From contig JAUXFG010000095.1 of NCBI GenBank assembly GCA_030620115.1, forward strand, positions 1-14,904: 14,904 nt of DNA. Direction: 5' to 3'. Below, one piece after another: positions 2 through 13,654 of this stretch (position 1 is the stretch's first letter; every line of letters starts with the position of its first letter). Source of the DNA: Candidatus Fermentibacterota bacterium. GTDB lineage: Bacteria > JAFGKV01. The notes beneath the pieces were generated by a model. That model searched no databases. It saw only the letters and a list, made by a program, of their open reading frames with translations, and had not been told where the DNA came from. A program made the position numbers and the translations under genes.

Positions 2-709
2 TCGTGCCTCGCCCCCCTCACCCCCGCACCCCCCCGCGGCGATTCTCACCCCGACGCTTCTGTCGCACGCGCCAATTCGTTCCTCTGCGGTCGAAATCCA
101 TGAAAGGATCCGGCCGGGCTCGACTGACGGCTTCGGACCACCGCTGAGAGTTTCATAGGTTTTCCTCAAGAGGACGGTGGGTTGCGTGCGGTTGAGCAGC
201 TCTGCCACAGCCCATCGCTGAGTGCTTCTGCCATCGAACCCCGAAAATGATGTGGTACGTGCCAGGAGCCCGGAGGCCAAATCAGCGGCAAAGGCGATCA
301 CCGCCAGGCTATACAATGCCGTGCGGGGAGCAGGCATACGCCCCTTCCAGGCCGAACAGACTGCCGAGAGGAATGCGACCGCCCACATGGCTTCCGGCAT
401 GACAACTGTCCAGATCACCGCCGGAAGAAGAAGCGCAAATCCTAGCCTGCCCGATGTGAGCAAAAGCAGGAGCGAAGCCCCCCCTTGCATGAGCCCCTGC
501 CACCCTCCATGGTTCCCCGTTGATGAGCAAGCCAGGAGCGTTCCGGCCATCAGCATGGTGACCACGCGGGCCACACGATCCTGGAACCGGGAAGCCCACA
601 GAACGCAAACCAGGAGGATGATGGAGGGCCCGATTCCCAGGCGCCCCGGAGAGGGCAGAAGCCACGATAATACGATGAACACGCATAGGAACTGACTAAG
701 CAATTTCAC
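2..709 (-). CDS. Partial integral membrane protein of unknown function, translationally coupled to the upstream polysaccharide gene
   Basis: I do not recognise the family. The reading frame is open from a GTG at 709-707 to the window edge (236 codons, no stop), so its C-terminus is missing. The GTG overlaps the TGA stop of the upstream gene as GTGA (709-706), a classic coupling arrangement. The first ~150 residues are strongly hydrophobic, with segments such as FLCVFIVLSWLLP, SIILLVCVLW, SLLLLL and FALLLPAVIWTVV, so I infer about four to six membrane helices. Then comes a more polar stretch containing RWAVAELLNRTQPTVLLRKTYETL. The hydrophobic pattern in exactly this frame argues it is real rather than the antisense frames here. 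Being coupled to an O-antigen ligase/polymerase-type gene, it may serve the same surface-polysaccharide pathway (inference). The last ~15 codons cross long G runs at the window edge and may be unreliable. Confidence 0.7.
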   Translation of the reverse strand, partial: MKLLSQFLCVFIVLSWLLPSPGRLGIGPSIILLVCVLWASRFQDRVARVVTMLMAGTLLACSSTGNHGGWQGLMQGGASLLLLLTSGRLGFALLLPAVIWTVVMPEAMWAVAFLSAVCSAWKGRMPAPRTALYSLAVIAFAADLASGLLARTTSFSGFDGRSTQRWAVAELLNRTQPTVLLRKTYETLSGGPKPSVEPGRILSWISTAEERIGACDRSVGVRIAAGGCGGEGGEAR

Positions 710-3573
710 TTCGGATCTTTCTCCGCTCTCTCGATGAGATCGAGCTCCTGTTGCGCATCCGTGACCCAACCCGGGCCGGCAGACCTATCCTCGATGACAG
801 AACGAAGATGTCTCCTGGCCTGTTGCCGCCTTCCCATGCGTCGCAATAACCTGCCGGCGAGAAGATTGAATCCGGGATTGCGGGGAGACCTCTCCAGTCC
901 TTTCCGTGCCCATCTGAACGCTTCCTGCGTCCGCCCCTCTGATTCAGCCCAAACGGCAAGCTCCCAGAAGGGAAGCACAGAGGTGGGGTAGGAATCAGCA
1001 AGCCTGACCAGAAGGGCACGAGCCCTCCGGGTGCTGCCCGAACGACGCTCCGCCTGAGCCATACCCATGCCGGCAGACAGGGAATCAGCACCATGCTGCA
1101 ATGCAGTACTGAACGAAGTGCGCGCCTCAGCCGCCCTTCCCAGCTCAAGCAACGTACGCCCCAACAGCAGCCATACTGCACCATCGTGCGGCCGCCGATC
1201 AACCAGCCGTCTGCACTGTTCATGAGCGTCCCTGTTCCTACTCCCAGCAAGAAGCGCCTCCACGAGTGACCATCGAGTCTGATCGGATCCACCACTTTGA
1301 ACCACGGCCTGCGAAGCAAGCGAGATTCCTGCGTCAATGCTCCCGGAGGCGAGCGCAACCTTGCTCCCAAGCAATAGCATTCGCCAGTCGTCGCGATCCA
1401 ACTCTGGAGCAGTCTTCAGCTTCCACTGGGCCATCACCAATCGACCGGCGCGGAGATCGCGCTCGACTGATTCACGGAGCTTGTCGAACACATCGAGAGC
1501 TTTTTGCTGTCCCGCGACTTCATTTGCCTTATCGTCGGAACGAATGGGCGATATTCTCGCCAGGGTTCGGCGTAACTCCGAGTCTGACGTCTTCACAAGC
1601 CATGCCACCCTCAGACTTTCGGCGGCCACACGGTCACCTCGCAGAATCCAATAGTTGATTGCGCCGAGGGCTATTTCGGAGTCCCGCTCTTCCCACCGCA
1701 ATCCGTTCTGGATCCTTGACGCTCCTCCCGCTTTGCCACGTTCGGTGGCGATCATGGAAAGGTACACTCGTGCTCTGGCTCCCCCGTAGGGTACGACCCC
1801 GCGAGGATCCAGTTCCAGAGCCTTGTTCAGAAGTCGCCTTGCCTTGCCAAGCCTATCTTGTCTCAGGAGCTGCTCTACGATGCGAACCATCTCGGGAACA
1901 TAGCCCGGATATTGAAGACTCCCGTGCAGCGGAGCGTCCAGGAATCTCTGCTCCGCCGCGTCTGCAAGCACTCCCTCGAGGGTTGGATTGTAACCGCCGA
2001 TCCACGTCGCGACCTTGGCGGCCGTGCGAGCCTTCTCTCTATCGCCGCTCCGCAGAGCCGTATTGCTTGCCAGAGCCAATATGTTGGCCCCCCATGTGAC
2101 GGCGAGTGCCGCGACCGGGATGATCATGGGCCACGGACATTTCTTGGACTCGCCGACCTGTCCGTGAAGCGAAATCAGGGATGACCCAGCCAGGAATCCA
2201 CTGACAAGGACCATTATGGGCGAGAGAATAGACATATCTGCCGCATTATGAATCCATACAAACAGGAAGCCATAACCTGCGAGGGCTCTCGGCGACATCG
2301 ATCCTGCGGCGCGCGTACGTCGAGCCCATAGAACCACAAGTACGAGAAGCACGATGGCGCCTGCCACACCGATTTGTTCGGCAACATGTAGCAGAAAGTG
2401 GTGCGCGTGCTGCATCATCCTCCCTGAGATCACATCGAGCTCTGCCCTTGGCTCTACCGTTCCGAGGGCCATGGGATGAATGAGGCCGAGGCCCCCGCCG
2501 AATGGTTTTCTCATGAGGAATAAAATTCCGCTCTTCCAGTGGAACTGCCGCGCAGAAACCGATAGGGCGAGCTCACCTGGAAGTCGGGGCGGCGGTAAAA
2601 ATCCAGCAAGCAAGACGAGCAACGGAAGGGAAACCAACGTCCATCGTGCGAACTGCTGTGCTTTCCCTCGTGGAATCAGTGAGACTGCAACGATCATGAT
2701 GCCGCAGAGAAGCGGCCACGTGCTGCCAAGAACGGCCATAAGAGCCAGCGCCAAGAGACCAGTCACCAATGTCAGCCGTCGCGATCGGGATCGCGCCAGC
2801 ATCACAAGAAGCAGGAAGCCAAGCCCTCCCTGAGCCGCAAGAAGATTGATATTGAGTCCCCAATCATTGCGGATGGTTTGCAGTCCACCATGACGCGCCA
2901 CGGTAGTGACGAGACCCAACGCGATGGGGGCGATCAGTGAACCCGACACCAACGTGAGGTCCCTTCGAGTCACTCGTGTATCGCGCCCCAACATGAAGCC
3001 TGCGAGGAAAAGAACGAACTGCGTCAGGAGATCCCCCCACCGGCATGCTGATCCCGCACGGACAAACTCGAACCCCCACCACGCGTACACGCCCAACCAT
3101 AGCCAATTGCGCCTCGTCCAAGGCAGACCCTCGGTGCCGGCAAGAATCAAGAGAAACACCGGGAAGCACGCCCAGAAGAAACCCGGTGGTACAAACAACA
3201 GAGAGACGAGCATGACAAAAACAGCAGGATGGCGAGACCAGGCCACTGACCGGGCAACAAGGATCATCAAGCTCGTTGCGACGGCCACGGCAAACACCTT
3301 CCAGGTACCTGCCATCGGGACGGAATCCGCCGCGGACCAGAGAAGATCCGACGTGGCCATGCGTTCCATCAGGATAAGCATCGAAACACCAAAAACCCAG
3401 AATGACAGCCTCTCTGCCCGCCCAATGCGTCTCAAGAAGTAGGCGAACAAAACCGCTGCCGCTCCCCAATAGCCGATCCGTTCCGAAACAGAGGGAAACA
3501 ACGCGTGGACTAGAGCGACCACGGCAAGGGCGTAGACGAATAGAACCCAATCTCTGATCTTCCAAGCTCGCAT
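706..3573 (-). CDS. O-antigen ligase/polymerase-type membrane protein (Wzy/WaaL family) with C-terminal TPR region
   Basis: Proteins of this superfamily (Wzy_C, PF04932) sit in the inner membrane and polymerise or transfer lipid-linked glycans on the periplasmic side. Numbered from the GTG at 3603, the first ~490 residues are a chain of hydrophobic helices. The family's periplasmic His-rich motif appears as QHAHHFLLHVAEQIGVAGAI around 398-417, followed directly by a membrane helix, as is typical. From ~500 to 955 the protein is soluble and helical with TPR-like repeats, clearest at ~785-950 (AVWLLLGRTLLELGRAAEA, VLPFWELAVWAESEGRTQEAF). At ~955 residues it is about twice the size of simple Wzy or WaaL proteins because of the TPR part. 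Start: I prefer ATG 3573 (GAGTGAG just upstream) over the in-frame GTG 3603, which has no Shine-Dalgarno. Polymerase versus ligase cannot be settled from sequence. The next gene overlaps by four bases. Confidence 0.85.
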   Translation of the reverse strand: MRAWKIRDWVLFVYALAVVALVHALFPSVSERIGYWGAAAVLFAYFLRRIGRAERLSFWVFGVSMLILMERMATSDLLWSAADSVPMAGTWKVFAVAVATSLMILVARSVAWSRHPAVFVMLVSLLFVPPGFFWACFPVFLLILAGTEGLPWTRRNWLWLGVYAWWGFEFVRAGSACRWGDLLTQFVLFLAGFMLGRDTRVTRRDLTLVSGSLIAPIALGLVTTVARHGGLQTIRNDWGLNINLLAAQGGLGFLLLVMLARSRSRRLTLVTGLLALALMAVLGSTWPLLCGIMIVAVSLIPRGKAQQFARWTLVSLPLLVLLAGFLPPPRLPGELALSVSARQFHWKSGILFLMRKPFGGGLGLIHPMALGTVEPRAELDVISGRMMQHAHHFLLHVAEQIGVAGAIVLLVLVVLWARRTRAAGSMSPRALAGYGFLFVWIHNAADMSILSPIMVLVSGFLAGSSLISLHGQVGESKKCPWPMIIPVAALAVTWGANILALASNTALRSGDREKARTAAKVATWIGGYNPTLEGVLADAAEQRFLDAPLHGSLQYPGYVPEMVRIVEQLLRQDRLGKARRLLNKALELDPRGVVPYGGARARVYLSMIATERGKAGGASRIQNGLRWEERDSEIALGAINYWILRGDRVAAESLRVAWLVKTSDSELRRTLARISPIRSDDKANEVAGQQKALDVFDKLRESVERDLRAGRLVMAQWKLKTAPELDRDDWRMLLLGSKVALASGSIDAGISLASQAVVQSGGSDQTRWSLVEALLAGSRNRDAHEQCRRLVDRRPHDGAVWLLLGRTLLELGRAAEARTSFSTALQHGADSLSAGMGMAQAERRSGSTRRARALLVRLADSYPTSVLPFWELAVWAESEGRTQEAFRWARKGLERSPRNPGFNLLAGRLLRRMGRRQQARRHLRSVIEDRSAGPGWVTDAQQELDLIERAEKDPK

Positions 3574-3603
3574 ATTCTCACTCGGTGATGGTATTCCGCT
3601 CAC

Positions 3604-5370: not shown

Positions 5371-7527
5371 TTAGAACCAGGAGGTGATGCCCACTCTCCA
5401 GCGTCGCCCCGGGAGCGGATACCCCCATTGATCGTTTCCGGATTGATCCAGCACATTGTCCACCTGGAAAAGCAAAGAAGGCAAGGAGCCTCCACCGAGC
5501 TCCCCCCATACCCTCATGTCGGTTCTTCCCCCTTCGGCTCTTGCATTTGCTCGGTCGAGATAGAACGAGCTCTCGCTGGTCACGCCAATGCCGACACGGG
5601 ATCTCTGCGCAATGCGGAAGATCATATTCCCTCCCCCTCGCCAGGAGGGACAGCCAGGGAGATCTTTGCCCCGATAGTACGGCGCCGGGGAACGATCCTC
5701 GGTCTCCTGGTATGCGCCATACAATCGCACCGAGAGATAATCGTTCCAGAGACCACCAAAACGAACGCTGATCTCGACCCCCTTCATTCGGACCTCACCG
5801 ATATTCTCAGCGATGACGACACGAGGCGATCTCAGCCAGTAATGAATCAGATTCTCCGCGTCACGGACATAGGAGGTAAGCCTGAGTGTGCCGTCCCACA
5901 CATCCAGAATGGCTTCCATCTGCCTGGCCTTTTCAGATACCAATGCGGGATTGCCTCGAACACTCCCCTGATCGCCAAACTTCTCCAGAAGCGTAGGCTG
6001 ACGACCGCGCATGGCCATGGTCAGAAGACATGTCACATCGTGAAACGGCTGAAGCTCCAGGGCTAGCCGGGCTGTCGCCAGATCACCTGTGGAGGCGCCG
6101 CCATGCTCATCGGTATCTCTGAACCAGGTAAGTGCAAGCTCTCCCCTCCCCCTGCTCCAATTCACGGGCCGCACTTCGATACCTCCGCCAGCGCTTCCTG
6201 TGAGCCGCCGCTGGGTGGATGCATGGCTTTGTCTTGCATCGGTTTCCGCACGAAATCGCTCGAGGCGTGTCTCTATGCGAAGATCCTGGCCCACGAATGA
6301 GCTTCCTCGGCGGCTGTGGAAGAGCCGCGCTCCGGTACTGGTGCCTGTTTCAGTTCTGGTCGATGGGTAATGCCTGAGCTCCGCCCGAGGATCGCTCACC
6401 TTGCTGGAGAACCATTCCTGATAAGCAGTGATCTCGGTGATCGTACCACCACCGGAATCTGCCATATGTTTCACTGCAAGCCGTTCCTCCCATGCACGAT
6501 GGCGTGCCTCGCGAATCGGATTTGCGCCGGGACCGGGTACCCCTTCTCGCCTCCAACTGCCCAATGAAGTAAAGAGGAATCGCTGATGAGGATCAAGCCG
6601 CAGCTCTGACTTGAGAAGCACGTTCACCACGTCAATGGCGTTGTTTGCCCTCGTTCTGAGGGTATCATCCGTCGCATTCAGGGGTGTCGTATTATCATCG
6701 GTATAAACAAAATCATTCTCCTGCGACAAGAGTTCCACATCAGCCCATGTCCATCCCGATCTGAAACGCGAACCGAAGGCCACCCCCCCCTCCCGGCGGC
6801 CAAGGCCGCCTCCGCCCACCCGGGCACGAACGCCGGCTCTTGGTGCGGATTGAGCCGACAGCTCCACACCCCCACCAATGGCGGATCCACCCAGCCGAGG
6901 AGGAGTCCATCCCTGGTACACATGCAGCCGCTCGATAACACCGGGAAGGATGCCCTCCGCCTTGGCTGTCCCAAAGCGCGCGCCTGATAGCGGTACGCCG
7001 TCCAGCCACATCTCGGTCTGCTGAGAAGATGACCCCCTGATGCATATCGCCCCAGCCCCTAGCCCTGTGCCGACCTGAGCCGCCCTCACACCCGGCACTT
7101 CGTCCAGTGCCTGTGAAACAGTGGATGCACCCGGATCCACCGAAATCGAGACCACGCCAGAACTCCACTCACCTGGTCTCTCGGCGATGTCGTCTATCTT
7201 GACAGCCGGCATTGGCGTCGGACGTGGATGCATGGAGATGATCCAGCAACCAGCGCCGGACACCAATGTCGTATCCACCCGCGCATAGCCAGTCCGAACT
7301 AACGACACATCAATCGGCATCGTAAGATCGTTGGGCAATGTTACAGAGCCATCAGTACCGGTGACCGCCATCCACGGCGCTCTGCCTCTCAATTCGACGC
7401 GGACATCAGCGATACCTTCTCCCGTTGACGCATCGAGAATCGTGACCAGAGGCGGGCCGTCCTCCAAGCCCGCCGCCGCTATCTGAAGGACCAGAGACAG
7501 GAAACAAAGAACCGTAAAGCTCTTCAT
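5371..7527 (-). CDS. btuB: TonB-dependent outer-membrane receptor, probable cobalamin transporter BtuB
   Basis: Outer-membrane beta-barrel that imports a ligand using TonB energy; cobalamin is inferred from the riboswitch upstream. Counting from ATG 7527 (718 residues): signal peptide 1-20 (MKSFTVLCFLSLVLQIAAAG); a carboxypeptidase-regulatory-like beta domain at ~25-102 (VTILDASTGEGIADVRVELRG...TDGSVTLP); a plug at ~135-224 with STVSQALDEVPGVR, ICIRGSSSQQTEMWLDGVPL and IERLHVYQG...GGSAIGGGVEL; then the barrel, ending in the terminal aromatic sequence RRWRVGITSWF. Domain order and length match the family. No clear TonB box is visible; PAVKIDDIAE before the plug is the only candidate. I prefer ATG 7527, preceded by GAGAG at good spacing, over an in-frame TTG at 7551. 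It follows the propeller gene by ~50 bases with no terminator seen, so the two are likely cotranscribed. The ligand is inferred, not read from residues. Confidence 0.85.
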   Translation of the reverse strand: MKSFTVLCFLSLVLQIAAAGLEDGPPLVTILDASTGEGIADVRVELRGRAPWMAVTGTDGSVTLPNDLTMPIDVSLVRTGYARVDTTLVSGAGCWIISMHPRPTPMPAVKIDDIAERPGEWSSGVVSISVDPGASTVSQALDEVPGVRAAQVGTGLGAGAICIRGSSSQQTEMWLDGVPLSGARFGTAKAEGILPGVIERLHVYQGWTPPRLGGSAIGGGVELSAQSAPRAGVRARVGGGGLGRREGGVAFGSRFRSGWTWADVELLSQENDFVYTDDNTTPLNATDDTLRTRANNAIDVVNVLLKSELRLDPHQRFLFTSLGSWRREGVPGPGANPIREARHRAWEERLAVKHMADSGGGTITEITAYQEWFSSKVSDPRAELRHYPSTRTETGTSTGARLFHSRRGSSFVGQDLRIETRLERFRAETDARQSHASTQRRLTGSAGGGIEVRPVNWSRGRGELALTWFRDTDEHGGASTGDLATARLALELQPFHDVTCLLTMAMRGRQPTLLEKFGDQGSVRGNPALVSEKARQMEAILDVWDGTLRLTSYVRDAENLIHYWLRSPRVVIAENIGEVRMKGVEISVRFGGLWNDYLSVRLYGAYQETEDRSPAPYYRGKDLPGCPSWRGGGNMIFRIAQRSRVGIGVTSESSFYLDRANARAEGGRTDMRVWGELGGGSLPSLLFQVDNVLDQSGNDQWGYPLPGRRWRVGITSWF

Positions 7528-7576
7528 TCCAGCTCTCTCGTTATGCCTCAAAAACAGGTTTCAGAAGAGGCCATGG

Positions 7577-8953
7577 CTATCTATTCACCACCACCACATG
7601 TGTTTCCACACGGCCTGTTTCCCTTACCTTCAAGAGGTACACCCCAGAAGCAAGGGGCTTCCCTTGGGGGCCAATGAGCCCGAGTGATCCACCGAACTCT
7701 GAAAGCAATGCGGAGGAGATCTTCCGACCTGCCAGGTCCGACAGCTCCATAAAGAGAGACGATTCCCTTGGGGATATGGGACGAACATGCACCACATCCG
7801 CAGCAGGATTGGGCCAGACCATATAGAGGATCCGCTCCTCGGCCAGCACAGGCCCCTGGTCCGCACCCAAAGGCGCCACCACTGCTCCGTTCGTGGGGGG
7901 GAGACCCGTCGCCACGGGCCCGCAGATCAGCGTATCGACAGTTGCGTCAAAGAGCAGCAGGCCCGCCAGCTCCGGGTTCTCCCACGTGCCCTGATCAGCC
8001 ACATAGAAGATACTGTCGTGGACAAGAGCATAGGGCAAGTAGCCACCGCTGGAGCCGGGAAAGGGTTCGGAGATCGTTGCCGTGGGTAGATCGAATGCTC
8101 GAATCGAATTGACCCAGGTCTCATCGGAGATGATGAGGAAAACCCTATCCTCGAATGCGGCAACATGCGTCAGATTGCCCCCTAGCTCATCTTCGGTCAC
8201 GAGCACTTCTGGTTCCTCTCCGCCGGCCAGATCCAAGAGAACAAGGCCACCATCAGTGTAAGAGCTCCAATTGGCTGTACACCCGACAAGCAGGCAACTT
8301 CCGTTCCACGCCCACGATGTGGGATTCTCAAGGGGCAACCAGATCGGATCCAAAGCTCCGGTGGACGGGTCGGCGTCTACTATGGTGTCAGTGGCGGGAT
8401 CGATGATCGCCATACACCCCGGGCCCGCCGGATCCATCATGGCGGTATTACGGTCGAGCCTCTGGCAAACCACGAGAACCTTATCACCCCAACGGATCAG
8501 ATCGGTCATTTCTGGTATGCCATCAGAGCTGTCGGCAACCGAGGAGAGATCGATAGATCCCAGATGCTCCCCGGTCAAGGGATCCACAATAAGGAGTCCG
8601 CTCATCTCAAAAAGCGTCACATATGCTTTGTGATGATCGATCAGAAGAATATCCTGAGGATTGCTTCTGTTTCCCGTGGAGAACTGAATGAGGGGCGTCT
8701 CGAGATCATTCGCAGTGAGGACCGTGATATTGTCATATCCTAAACGATTGATGACAAAGATGTACCCGTCCTGGGAACGCACCACCGCATCTCCCGAGAC
8801 TGGTAAGGAGAGCACCGTGGTTTCACATGCGCCCGCGTCCTGACGGGCCATCCCACCACTGGAGAAATCACTAGTCACCCAGACCAAGAATTCCTGCGAA
8901 GAAGCTGGTGGGGTGATGAGTACGAGAAGAATAAGAAACAGGATTGCACGCAT
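7577..8953 (-). CDS. Secreted beta-propeller protein, BtuG-like cobalamin-binding candidate, with C-terminal sorting-type domain
   Basis: 458 residues. Signal peptide 1-20 (MRAILFLILLVLITPPASSQ) with an AxxQ-like signal peptidase I site and no lipobox Cys. Residues ~23-370 are repeated propeller-type blades: GDAVVRSQDGYIFVINRLGYDNITVL, KAYVTLFEMSGLLIVDPLTGEHLGSIDLS, GIPEMTDLIRWGDKVLVVCQRLDRN, MAIIDPATDTIVDADP and more. This resembles the surface beta-propellers that partner BtuB; BtuG of Bacteroides is known to bind B12 very tightly. Residues ~376-458 (VWPNPAADVVHV...LSDLAGR...GVYLLKV...VVVVNR) match the type A sorting/FlgD-like Ig domain pattern of type IX secretion substrates. ATG 8953 is set by a strong AGGAGGTG at 8966-8958. 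It is first in the operon, below a cobalamin riboswitch and terminator, with the receptor next. B12 binding is inference from family resemblance and context. Confidence 0.8.
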   Translation of the reverse strand: MRAILFLILLVLITPPASSQEFLVWVTSDFSSGGMARQDAGACETTVLSLPVSGDAVVRSQDGYIFVINRLGYDNITVLTANDLETPLIQFSTGNRSNPQDILLIDHHKAYVTLFEMSGLLIVDPLTGEHLGSIDLSSVADSSDGIPEMTDLIRWGDKVLVVCQRLDRNTAMMDPAGPGCMAIIDPATDTIVDADPSTGALDPIWLPLENPTSWAWNGSCLLVGCTANWSSYTDGGLVLLDLAGGEEPEVLVTEDELGGNLTHVAAFEDRVFLIISDETWVNSIRAFDLPTATISEPFPGSSGGYLPYALVHDSIFYVADQGTWENPELAGLLLFDATVDTLICGPVATGLPPTNGAVVAPLGADQGPVLAEERILYMVWPNPAADVVHVRPISPRESSLFMELSDLAGRKISSALLSEFGGSLGLIGPQGKPLASGVYLLKVRETGRVETHVVVVNR

Positions 8954-9034
8954 AGAACACCTCCTAAAGGCGCGCAGTGTGGAGATGTCCCGAGGCAGGA
9001 TTGTTCCAAGGAGACGGAGGGAGGACGTTCGTCA

Positions 9035-9065
9035 AAATGAAGAAAGCTCCGGCTCCCGGAGCTTT
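9035..9065 (-). terminator. Intrinsic terminator in the cobalamin leader (riboswitch expression platform)
   Basis: The arms 9065-9056 (AAAGCTCCGG) and 9052-9043 (CCGGAGCTTT) form a perfect 10-bp stem with a three-base loop, followed on the minus strand by CTTCATTTTG, a U-rich tract. It lies between the aptamer and the propeller gene start (8953), the right place for B12-dependent premature termination. Confidence 0.7.
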
Positions 9066-9110
9066 GGGGTTCTCAACCCACTTCCCGGCCCCGGGGAAGA
9101 CAACGGTCGA

Positions 9111-9269
9111 GCAAGGCAGGCAGGTTTTCTGGCTCCCGGATCATCCTAATTCCCGCGCCTTCCCGCCATTCGGCAGTGGCTCCTGCGGGTTTCGTACCCG
9201 GTCACAGCGGCGGCCCCGCGACGGCTTCGCACCGTCTTCCCTTTTACCCGTAAGGGGCACCTGTCTTGC
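9111..9269 (-). ncRNA. Cobalamin (adenosylcobalamin-class) riboswitch aptamer
   Basis: Reading the minus strand, the conserved cobalamin-element blocks appear in order. First is the closing arm GCAAG (9269-9265), which pairs with CTTGC (9115-9111). Then come AGGTGCC, AAGGGAAGACGGTGCGAAGC, GGGGCCGCCGCTGTGACCGG and GCCACTG (9180-9174). These are followed by GGCGGGAAGGCG, TTAGGATGATCCGGGAGCC and the B12 box GAGCCAGAAAACCTGCC (9135-9119), close to the classic AGCCAGGAGACCTGCC. A full set in the right order over ~160 bases is strong evidence. It controls the downstream propeller gene and TonB receptor: B12 binding should favour the terminator at 9065-9035 and shut the operon off. No transcription start could be identified confidently, so readthrough from rpsT is possible. 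Confidence 0.95.
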
Positions 9270-9275
9270 TCTCCT

Positions 9276-9386
9276 GCAACGCGCGATGGCGTTGCTCTTA
9301 CGTGGAGACGGAGTACAACTCCGTGCTCCACCATATGCACGCCGACACGTAATCCCGTACCCCTATCTCGTCAAACACGAGAGGGG
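9276..9386 (-). other. Three consecutive stem-loops between rpsT and the riboswitch
   Basis: The spacer below rpsT holds three hairpins. At 9360-9386 CCCCT-AT-CTCGT pairs with ACGAG-AGGGG around a five-base loop, with a two-base bulge. At 9304-9329 GGAG-ACGGAGT pairs with ACTCCGT-G-CTCC, 11 bp with one bulge and a three-base loop. At 9276-9295 GCAACGC pairs with GCGTTGC, 7 bp with a six-base loop. None is followed by a T tract on the minus strand. They may be the processed 3' end of the rpsT mRNA, or the 5' part of the leader; the third abuts the aptamer. Confidence 0.5.
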
Positions 9387-9416: not shown

Positions 9417-9680
9417 CTACTGTTCTGAGCCTATACTGTTGGCAAACTTCGAAAGACGCGACTTATTCCTGTCTGCGGTACGCTTCTTGATGACGCCCTT
9501 CTTGGCTGCCCGGTCGATGACGGAAATCGCTTTGGGAAGAACTGTTGCAACCTCCTCAGCGCTGGAGGCGCTCCGCACCTTCTTCTTCATTGTCCTTACT
9601 TCGGACATCACTGCCCGATTTCGATTCCGCCTCTTCGCATCCTGGCGCAGGCTTTTGGCTTGCGACTTATGATGAGGCAA
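9417..9680 (-). CDS. rpsT: 30S ribosomal protein S20
   Basis: 87 residues, the usual S20 length. The N-terminus PHHKSQAKSLRQDAKRRNRNRA and the later AAKKGVIKKRTADRNKSRLSKFAN are the characteristic highly basic helical segments of this protein, which binds 16S rRNA early in small-subunit assembly. The start is TTG at 9680, giving the expected M-P-H-H-K-S; no ATG or GTG would. A purine-rich AAGGGGGTG lies about five bases upstream (within 9694-9685) and supports it. E. coli rpsT also starts with UUG, where weak initiation is linked to autoregulation. It stands alone here, as is common for rpsT, with a possible promoter at 9750-9722. The cobalamin leader follows ~150 bases downstream on the same strand. 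Confidence 0.97.
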   Translation of the reverse strand: MPHHKSQAKSLRQDAKRRNRNRAVMSEVRTMKKKVRSASSAEEVATVLPKAISVIDRAAKKGVIKKRTADRNKSRLSKFANSIGSEQ

Positions 9681-12307: not shown

Positions 12308-13654
12308 ATGAAGAGGACGCCGCGCTACGGGAGGTTTTTTACCAGCACATCTGGCCCGCGGCACATCGTCATACGAGGAAGAGTGGAGAGCGTTGAAAGG
12401 ACCCGCCTTATCATCCGTTCCGAGGGGGAGCTTGTTGCGGTGCACTTCCGGCAGGCTCCGGGATTGTATCGCGGGGATATCGTCGAGATTATGGTTCAGA
12501 AGTCAGATGAGCGCGTTGATTATCTGACACACAAGCTCCTTGTAAGACCGGCGGAGGATCCCGTCGGGGTACGACACTCGATGTATCACGAAATGAGATC
12601 AAAGTTCGAAAACCTCCACGCCCGTGCCCGCATGTGGTCTCGCGTGAGATCCTTTTTCCAGGAACGAGGCTTCCTGGAAATCCAAACCCCGAGCCTCGTG
12701 CTCTCGCCGGGCATGGAGCCGAGTCTCGGGTTTTTCACTACAACATACGTAGACCACCAGCAGAGACCCCACGTGTACTACCTGCCCACTTCACCGGAGT
12801 TTTCTCTCAAGAAAGCGCTCTGCGCCGGCTACGAGAGAATCTATGACATACGGCCCGTGTTCCGTAATTTTGGGGAACTGGGCCCACTCCATCATCCTGA
12901 GTTCACCATGCTTGAGTGGTACCGTGCATACGCTGACTACACCGCCATCATGCACGATACCGAAGAACTGGTCTCCCTCTTGGCTCGCGAGCTCGTGGGC
13001 AAGGAGCCGGTGCCCTTCAGAGGCATCAGGATTTCCTGGGAACCCCCCTACCCCCGGAAAAGCGTTCAAGAAGCGTGGAGCCAATTCGTTGGTATCGATC
13101 TCCTTGCATGCCTTCAGGACCCCACTTACATGCATGCACAGTGCCAGGAGGTCCTTGAGAGGACCCTGCCCGCTGACGAGGATCAGACGACTCTCTTCCA
13201 CCGCGTCATGCTGGAGATCGTGGAACCACAGCTGGGCCTCGATAAGCCAATGATCCTCTACGACTATCCCGCGGATCTGGCGGCACTTTCGGTGATAAAG
13301 CAGGGAGAGCCGTTGCTTTGCGAACGTTTTGAGCTCTATATCGCCGGGGTGGAGATCGCAAACGCGTTCACAGAATTGAACGACCCTCGTGAGATGGCGC
13401 TTCGCATTCGCCGGGATCGGGGATTGCAGATGTCGGCTGGTATCCCTCCAAGCCCGGTGGATGGCCAACTTCTCAGAGCTCTCCGGCAGGGAATGCCCCC
13501 GGCCGGCGGCATTGCCCTGGGCATGGATAGACTTCTCATGGCGCTTCTGGGAATCTCCACCATTGAAGAGGTAATCCCCTTTCCACTCTCTGACCTGACA
13601 TCTCACGAACAGCGACTGGGAAGGCTCGGCGAGGATAGGAATGAGGGTTGTTGA
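12308..13654 (+). CDS. epmA: EpmA-like elongation factor P lysyltransferase (GenX/PoxA family, LysRS paralogue) with N-terminal OB-like extension
   Basis: EpmA attaches (R)-beta-lysine to a conserved lysine of elongation factor P, helping ribosomes through polyproline stretches. From ~95 the sequence follows E. coli EpmA closely: YYLPTSPEFSLKKALCAG (158-174), class II motif 2 VFRNFGELGPLHHPEFTMLEWYR (184-206), FELYIAGVEIANAFTELNDPRE (341-362) and GGIALGMDRLLM (400-411). A403 matches the Ala that separates EpmA from lysyl-tRNA synthetase, which has Gly there. At 448 residues it is over 100 longer than E. coli EpmA (~325). The extra N-terminus (~18-80, HIVIRGRVESVERTRLIIRS...YRGDIVEIMV) is beta-rich and looks like a small OB fold, though it is much shorter than a normal LysRS anticodon domain. 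efp and epmB are not in this window. ATG 12308 has AGG five bases upstream. Target assignment is by family. Confidence 0.85.
   Translation: MKRTPRYGRFFTSTSGPRHIVIRGRVESVERTRLIIRSEGELVAVHFRQAPGLYRGDIVEIMVQKSDERVDYLTHKLLVRPAEDPVGVRHSMYHEMRSKFENLHARARMWSRVRSFFQERGFLEIQTPSLVLSPGMEPSLGFFTTTYVDHQQRPHVYYLPTSPEFSLKKALCAGYERIYDIRPVFRNFGELGPLHHPEFTMLEWYRAYADYTAIMHDTEELVSLLARELVGKEPVPFRGIRISWEPPYPRKSVQEAWSQFVGIDLLACLQDPTYMHAQCQEVLERTLPADEDQTTLFHRVMLEIVEPQLGLDKPMILYDYPADLAALSVIKQGEPLLCERFELYIAGVEIANAFTELNDPREMALRIRRDRGLQMSAGIPPSPVDGQLLRALRQGMPPAGGIALGMDRLLMALLGISTIEEVIPFPLSDLTSHEQRLGRLGEDRNEGC

Follow-up and report, generated by a model that had tools for sequence, protein, structure and literature searches.

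A probable corrinoid capture operon of Candidatus Fermentibacterota pairs a BtuG-like propeller bearing a type IX-type sorting domain with a BtuB-like receptor

How a propeller that captures vitamin B12 might be placed at the cell surface without a lipid anchor is the question raised by a locus within a 14,904-nucleotide stretch of DNA from Candidatus Fermentibacterota (assembly GCA_030620115.1, contig JAUXFG010000095.1; hereafter the window). On the minus strand of the window, a cobalamin riboswitch and a terminator-like hairpin are followed by the gene of a 458-residue propeller protein and then by that of a TonB-dependent receptor (Table 1). The BtuG1-3/BtuB systems of Bacteroides thetaiotaomicron are built alike: a secreted propeller adjoins a BtuB-type receptor, and the locus carries a B12 riboswitch (PMC6143338; PMC10404256). 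BtuG is an N-terminally lipidated surface lipoprotein with a lipobox and a lipoprotein export signal, and a BlastP survey of 313 gut genomes found its homologues only in Bacteroidetes (PMC6143338). Unlike Bacteroides BtuG, the window propeller lacks a lipobox, ends in a C-terminal sorting domain, belongs to another phylum and is encoded ahead of the receptor. We consider it probable that the locus is a B12-repressed corrinoid capture operon, encoding a BtuBG-like pair with a lid that is brought to the surface along a route resembling the type IX secretion system (T9SS).

The aptamer matched the cobalamin riboswitch model over its full length (gathering score, 31.5 bits). An earlier note, drawn from the letters of the window alone, had placed such a riboswitch ahead of the propeller gene; its presence is confirmed, whereas the end given there, 9269, falls 10 bases short of the 9279 found here. 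A pattern scan of the leader for terminators returned 3 matches versus 0.3 expected in shuffled sequences. The stem of the hairpin at 9043..9065 also appears in the predicted fold of the leader, and the leader as a whole folds no better than its shuffles (z -0.79). This hairpin is likely the transcription-termination switch of the riboswitch. The aptamer was the sole RF00174 match reported in the window genome, where scoring extended to 76 of 333 first-look candidates.

To place the operon among its relatives, propellers were sought in 193 genomes with a two-sequence profile, by protein profile only; a match in G123, confined to the sorting domain, was not counted. Propellers were found in 18 further genomes outside Fermentibacterota, part of which may be Bacteroidota, making 20 genomes together with the window genome and a second Fermentibacterota genome of the same family and another genus (G001). 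The latter carries riboswitch, sorting-domain propeller and receptor in the same order as the window, with identities of 50% for the propeller and 39% for the receptor. As the order is kept at 50% propeller identity, it reflects more than chance. A scan of a contig collection identified only the second Fermentibacterota locus, and querying plasmids with the receptor yielded two partial matches only.

A cobalamin riboswitch was present in the propeller locus of all 20 genomes, the window's included, so that homologues are not, as would have spoken against the idea, usually found away from such riboswitches. In 17 of the 20 genomes a single RF00174 match was reported, although such genome-wide counts are minimum values, as a limited number of candidates was scored. 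The chance that a 13-kb stretch in a 4-Mb genome holds its single riboswitch is about 0.3%, and the association is not circular because the relatives were chosen by protein profile alone. No riboswitch was found in the 9-kb locus L069, which holds the second propeller of G147. The receptor lies within the propeller locus in 18 of the 20 genomes. Genes for BtuF-like binding proteins, ABC (ATP-binding cassette) ATPases or a cobalamin adenosyltransferase often lie nearby. The commonest order is riboswitch, receptor, propeller and BtuF; riboswitch, propeller and receptor follow each other in the window, G001 and G099.

Some of these loci are more elaborate. Two propeller genes occur in tandem or flank the receptor at L063, L065 and L072 (G042, G130 and G139). 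In G139, a secreted 336-residue protein with a FlgD-Ig/sorting tail is encoded between riboswitch and propeller (L032:2316-3323, minus strand), and in G130 a secreted 298-residue protein without Pfam match follows the propellers (L038:2286-3179, plus strand). The two appear alike by eye and may represent a further accessory of B12 loci.

To determine the relationship of the propeller to solved structures, the PDB was searched with a cross-phylum profile of 17 relatives. Nine PDB sequences were matched at E-values from 3.6e-9 to 1.1e-7, among them BtuG3 (3.6e-9), BtuG2 (4e-8) and 3DSM (1e-7), followed by a tenth match at 0.033 and by YncE at 0.11. Of the entries concerned, 8P97/8P98 and 8OKV are BtuG3, 8BMX and 8BMY are BtuG2, and the homologue 3DSM served as the search model (PMC10404256); by their structure titles in our fold table, 8BAI is BtuG2, and 8BMZ and 8BN0 are BT1954, which is one of the three BtuG loci in B. 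thetaiotaomicron (PMC6143338). By this profile comparison the propeller is homologous to BtuG, the sole solved propeller with a significant E-value, which is in line with the BtuG-like nature proposed earlier. As it has no lipobox, the protein was filed as BtuG-like and not as a BtuG lipoprotein; it probably functions like BtuG.

The receptor contains a Plug domain (PF07715, E 8e-13) and a barrel domain (PF00593, E 2e-11), and its best NCBIfam match is the TonB-B12 model TIGR01779, below the equivalog cut-off of that model. When a profile of 16 receptors was compared with the PDB, BtuB1 of B. thetaiotaomicron came top with 219 bits, ahead of E. coli BtuB with 178 bits. These were followed by the BtuB partners found in 8BMX and 8P97/8P98 and by the colicin I receptor, and siderophore receptors appeared later, at about 100 bits. 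Taken together, the profile matches of propeller and receptor therefore point towards a BtuB-BtuG pair. The earlier description of a propeller with a signal peptide but without a lipobox cysteine, preceded by the riboswitch and followed by a TonB-dependent receptor, is upheld in each of its parts.

The absence of a lipobox raises the question of which other route is available to the protein. The last 79 residues matched the T9SS type A sorting domain model TIGR04183 above its curated cut-off, and the score rose to 29.1 bits in the genome scan; the propeller of G001 also exceeded the cut-off. In the window genome, sprA was found above cut-off on two contigs, together with 15 PorV-family matches above cut-off, sortase-like proteases of the C25 family and about 70 sorting domains. 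Each of the three Fermentibacterota genomes, the window's included, contains sprA above cut-off, many PorV-family proteins and 56-72 sorting domains. The sorting-type C-terminus and the position of the host outside Bacteroidota (its phylum being Candidatus Fermentibacterota) turned out as the earlier note had supposed, and type IX genes, whose lack would have spoken against its reading, are present in the same genome. With Sec signal, TIGR04183 domain and a genome encoding SprA and PorV-family proteins, the window propeller resembles the type A substrates of Porphyromonas gingivalis and Flavobacterium johnsoniae. It differs from reported T9SS in that the system has been found only in Bacteroidetes (PMC4793230), and in that neither PorU above cut-off nor GldM was found, the GldM controls being silent as well. 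The sprA-positive genomes among the 21 searched (G000, with contigs C28 and C277, and 20 others) were without a GldM match, and the T9SS motor of Fermentibacterota may be divergent or different.

We then compared the anchor of the propeller with the secretion genes of its host across the 20 genomes. sprA was above cut-off in exactly 8 of them (G000, G001, G101, G137, G174, G027, G147 and G139), all of which possess a propeller with a C-terminal domain of sorting or FlgD-Ig type. The 12 genomes whose propeller lacks a C-terminal sorting-type domain were all without sprA above cut-off (Fisher p = 8e-6, common descent not being corrected for). The FlgD-Ig tails of G101, G137, G174 and G027 were counted as putatively sorting-type from their position and a weak similarity to TIGR04183 or to PorU tails. 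A lipobox in the strict pattern was absent from the propellers of the 8 and present in 7 of 13 other copies; by eye, the propellers of G084 and G151 also look lipidated. No copy combines a lipobox with the C-terminal domain, and G147 carries one copy of each anchor kind. On the poorly resolved propeller tree (11 of 18 inner branches open), the sorting-domain label changed 4 times, and 11 of 500 shuffles were as low; the tree resolves too little for switches of anchor to be counted reliably. The anchor of the propeller relatives appears to follow what the secretion machinery of the host allows.

Several observations weigh against an assignment as a type IX-exported, BtuG-like lid. Searched alone, the window propeller matched no BtuG, DUF5074 or propeller model in Pfam, NCBIfam or the PDB but only the sorting domain or noise, and its homology to BtuG emerges only through the family profile. 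AlphaFold2 on the single sequence gave a mean predicted local distance difference test score (pLDDT) of 43.5, and the two-sequence model was also weak (mean pLDDT 58.5, below 50 in the N-terminal 80 residues). This low-confidence model is a propeller and superposes on BtuG (Z about 17, root-mean-square deviation 3.5-4.2 over 249-272 aligned residues), and BtuG entries are among the best fold matches, with the top identities of the table (17-19%). However, unrelated propellers tie with BtuG in this comparison, so that the fold alone does not single out BtuG; the superposition that the earlier note called for was obtained, but no better than on other propellers. The sorting-domain score is modest (27.8 bits versus a cut-off of 23), and the corresponding Pfam model PF18962 stays below its cut-off (23.1 versus 27 bits). 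No PorU match above cut-off was found, the C25 proteases of PorU type in the Fermentibacterota genomes reaching up to 218 bits versus the required 420. GldM gave no match in 21 genomes; as the controls gave nothing either, this result carries no evidential weight and does not imply absence.

The alternative that survives best is that the propeller stays in the periplasm, or is released, and aids the receptor or BtuF from inside, its C-terminal domain being a folding or contact module of FlgD-Ig or sorting type. Such a role is suggested by the relatives in G189, G044, G099 and G181, which have a signal peptide but neither lipobox nor sorting domain, by some C-terminal domains that score higher as FlgD_ig than as sorting domain, and by the lack of PorU or GldM matches above cut-off. 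We nevertheless regard it as unlikely, since both Fermentibacterota propellers exceed the TIGR04183 cut-off in the presence of sprA and the PorV family, and since sorting-type domain and sprA coincide in 8 of 8 versus 0 of 12 genomes, with lipobox and C-terminal domain never together.

Capture of a ligand other than B12, such as a siderophore, with a riboswitch that is coincidental or controls the receptor only, has a precedent in XusB, the xenosiderophore-binding lipoprotein of Bacteroides fragilis. As the window protein would be, this is a surface propeller for a scarce nutrient complex, and it is among the fold matches. In contrast to the BtuG chains, which reach 4e-9, XusB chains are absent among the profile matches listed to an E-value of 1, and a siderophore-like capture of this kind was rejected on these grounds. 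In addition, a siderophore context is absent in the window, the riboswitch directly precedes the propeller gene and accompanies it in every genome, and the receptor family is nearer to BtuB than to siderophore receptors, which renders such a ligand very improbable. A propeller of general YncE or YVTN kind that merely travels with the operon and takes no part in uptake would agree with the commonness of the fold, the equal structural scores of unrelated propellers and the YncE-like appearance of the weakest relatives (G139, which matches TIGR03866, and G181), but it was rejected as hardly credible because BtuG alone is significant in the profile search, with YncE at 0.11, and because a passenger would not be expected to keep its linkage in about 19 families.

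For the favored reading, a BtuBG-like pair with a lid exported by a T9SS-like route, we infer the following course. At low cellular B12 the riboswitch would remain unbound, and transcription would pass the terminator hairpin, so that propeller lid and receptor are made. The propeller would enter the periplasm via Sec, and its C-terminal sorting domain would be recognized by a type IX (SprA/PorV) translocon, by which the protein would cross the outer membrane and be retained at the cell surface. There it may bind corrinoids from outside, dock on the BtuB-type receptor and pass the corrinoids over, and BtuF, BtuC and BtuD would complete uptake. The corresponding genes btuF, btuD and btuC lie consecutively at a separate locus of the window genome (C5), where the BtuF and BtuC models are the best NCBIfam matches, below their equivalog cut-offs. 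The genome also contains 21 matches to the B12-binding domain. With receptor and ABC transporter homologues, this outfit resembles BtuB-BtuF-BtuCD of E. coli, but differs in that btuFDC stands apart and the sole reported riboswitch is that of the window. To our knowledge, E. coli BtuB works without a propeller lid.

Directly upstream of the riboswitch and on the same strand lies rpsT, encoding ribosomal protein S20 (9417-9680, minus strand). An EpmA-like elongation factor P (EF-P) lysine aminoacylase (12308-13654, plus strand; TIGR00462 above cut-off) carries about 95 additional N-terminal residues, which by eye are similar to an OB-type (oligonucleotide/oligosaccharide-binding) domain and are unlike E. 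coli EpmA. A 965-residue protein (706-3603, minus strand) has an N-terminal half that is multi-pass membrane and by eye O-antigen-ligase-like, and a C-terminal half of tetratricopeptide repeats.

Table 1. Positions of the operon features in the window and the evidence for each.
Feature	Position	Strand	Evidence
Cobalamin riboswitch aptamer (RF00174), operon leader	9102..9279	-	cmscan 113.6 bits, E 2.5e-28, model 1-189 of 189
Intrinsic-terminator-like hairpin between aptamer and first gene; 10 pairs, loop of 3, then CTTCATTTTG	9043..9065	-	pattern scan
BtuG-like, putatively secreted beta-propeller protein, 458 residues	7577..8953	-	open reading frame, ATG 8953 to stop 7577; family profile; fold model
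Sec-type signal peptide, residues ~1-19, MRAILFLILLVLITPPASSQEF, no lipobox cysteine	8897..8953	-	sequence; lipobox scan negative
Propeller domain, residues ~20-375	7829..8896	-	alignments; fold model
C-terminal T9SS type A sorting domain, residues 379-457	7583..7819	-	TIGR04183 27.8 bits, cut-off 23
BtuB-like TonB-dependent receptor, 718 residues from ATG 7527 (TTG start at 7551 possible)	5371..7527	-	Plug and barrel domains; NCBIfam; family profile

A literature search for BtuG together with type IX secretion gave only work on the beta-barrel assembly machine; it covered open-licence papers, and prior notice elsewhere is possible. What is new is a known capture principle with a different anchor in a different phylum. 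BtuG and T9SS, each reported from Bacteroidetes only, meet here in one Fermentibacterota operon, and across 20 genomes the mode of anchoring follows sprA. On balance, we lean towards the view that BtuG-type corrinoid lids are widespread in diderms and that their anchor is swappable, a lipid being used in the absence of a T9SS and a sorting domain where SprA is present, the latter kind of lid being secreted folded and held C-terminally. If the lid is indeed held at its C-terminal side, docking on BtuB must differ from that of the N-terminally tethered Bacteroides lid. The operon is a natural case in which to ask if the lid needs an N-terminal tether for the handover of B12 to BtuB. The results extend surface B12 capture beyond its previously known range and suggest a role in vitamin acquisition for a T9SS-type signal.

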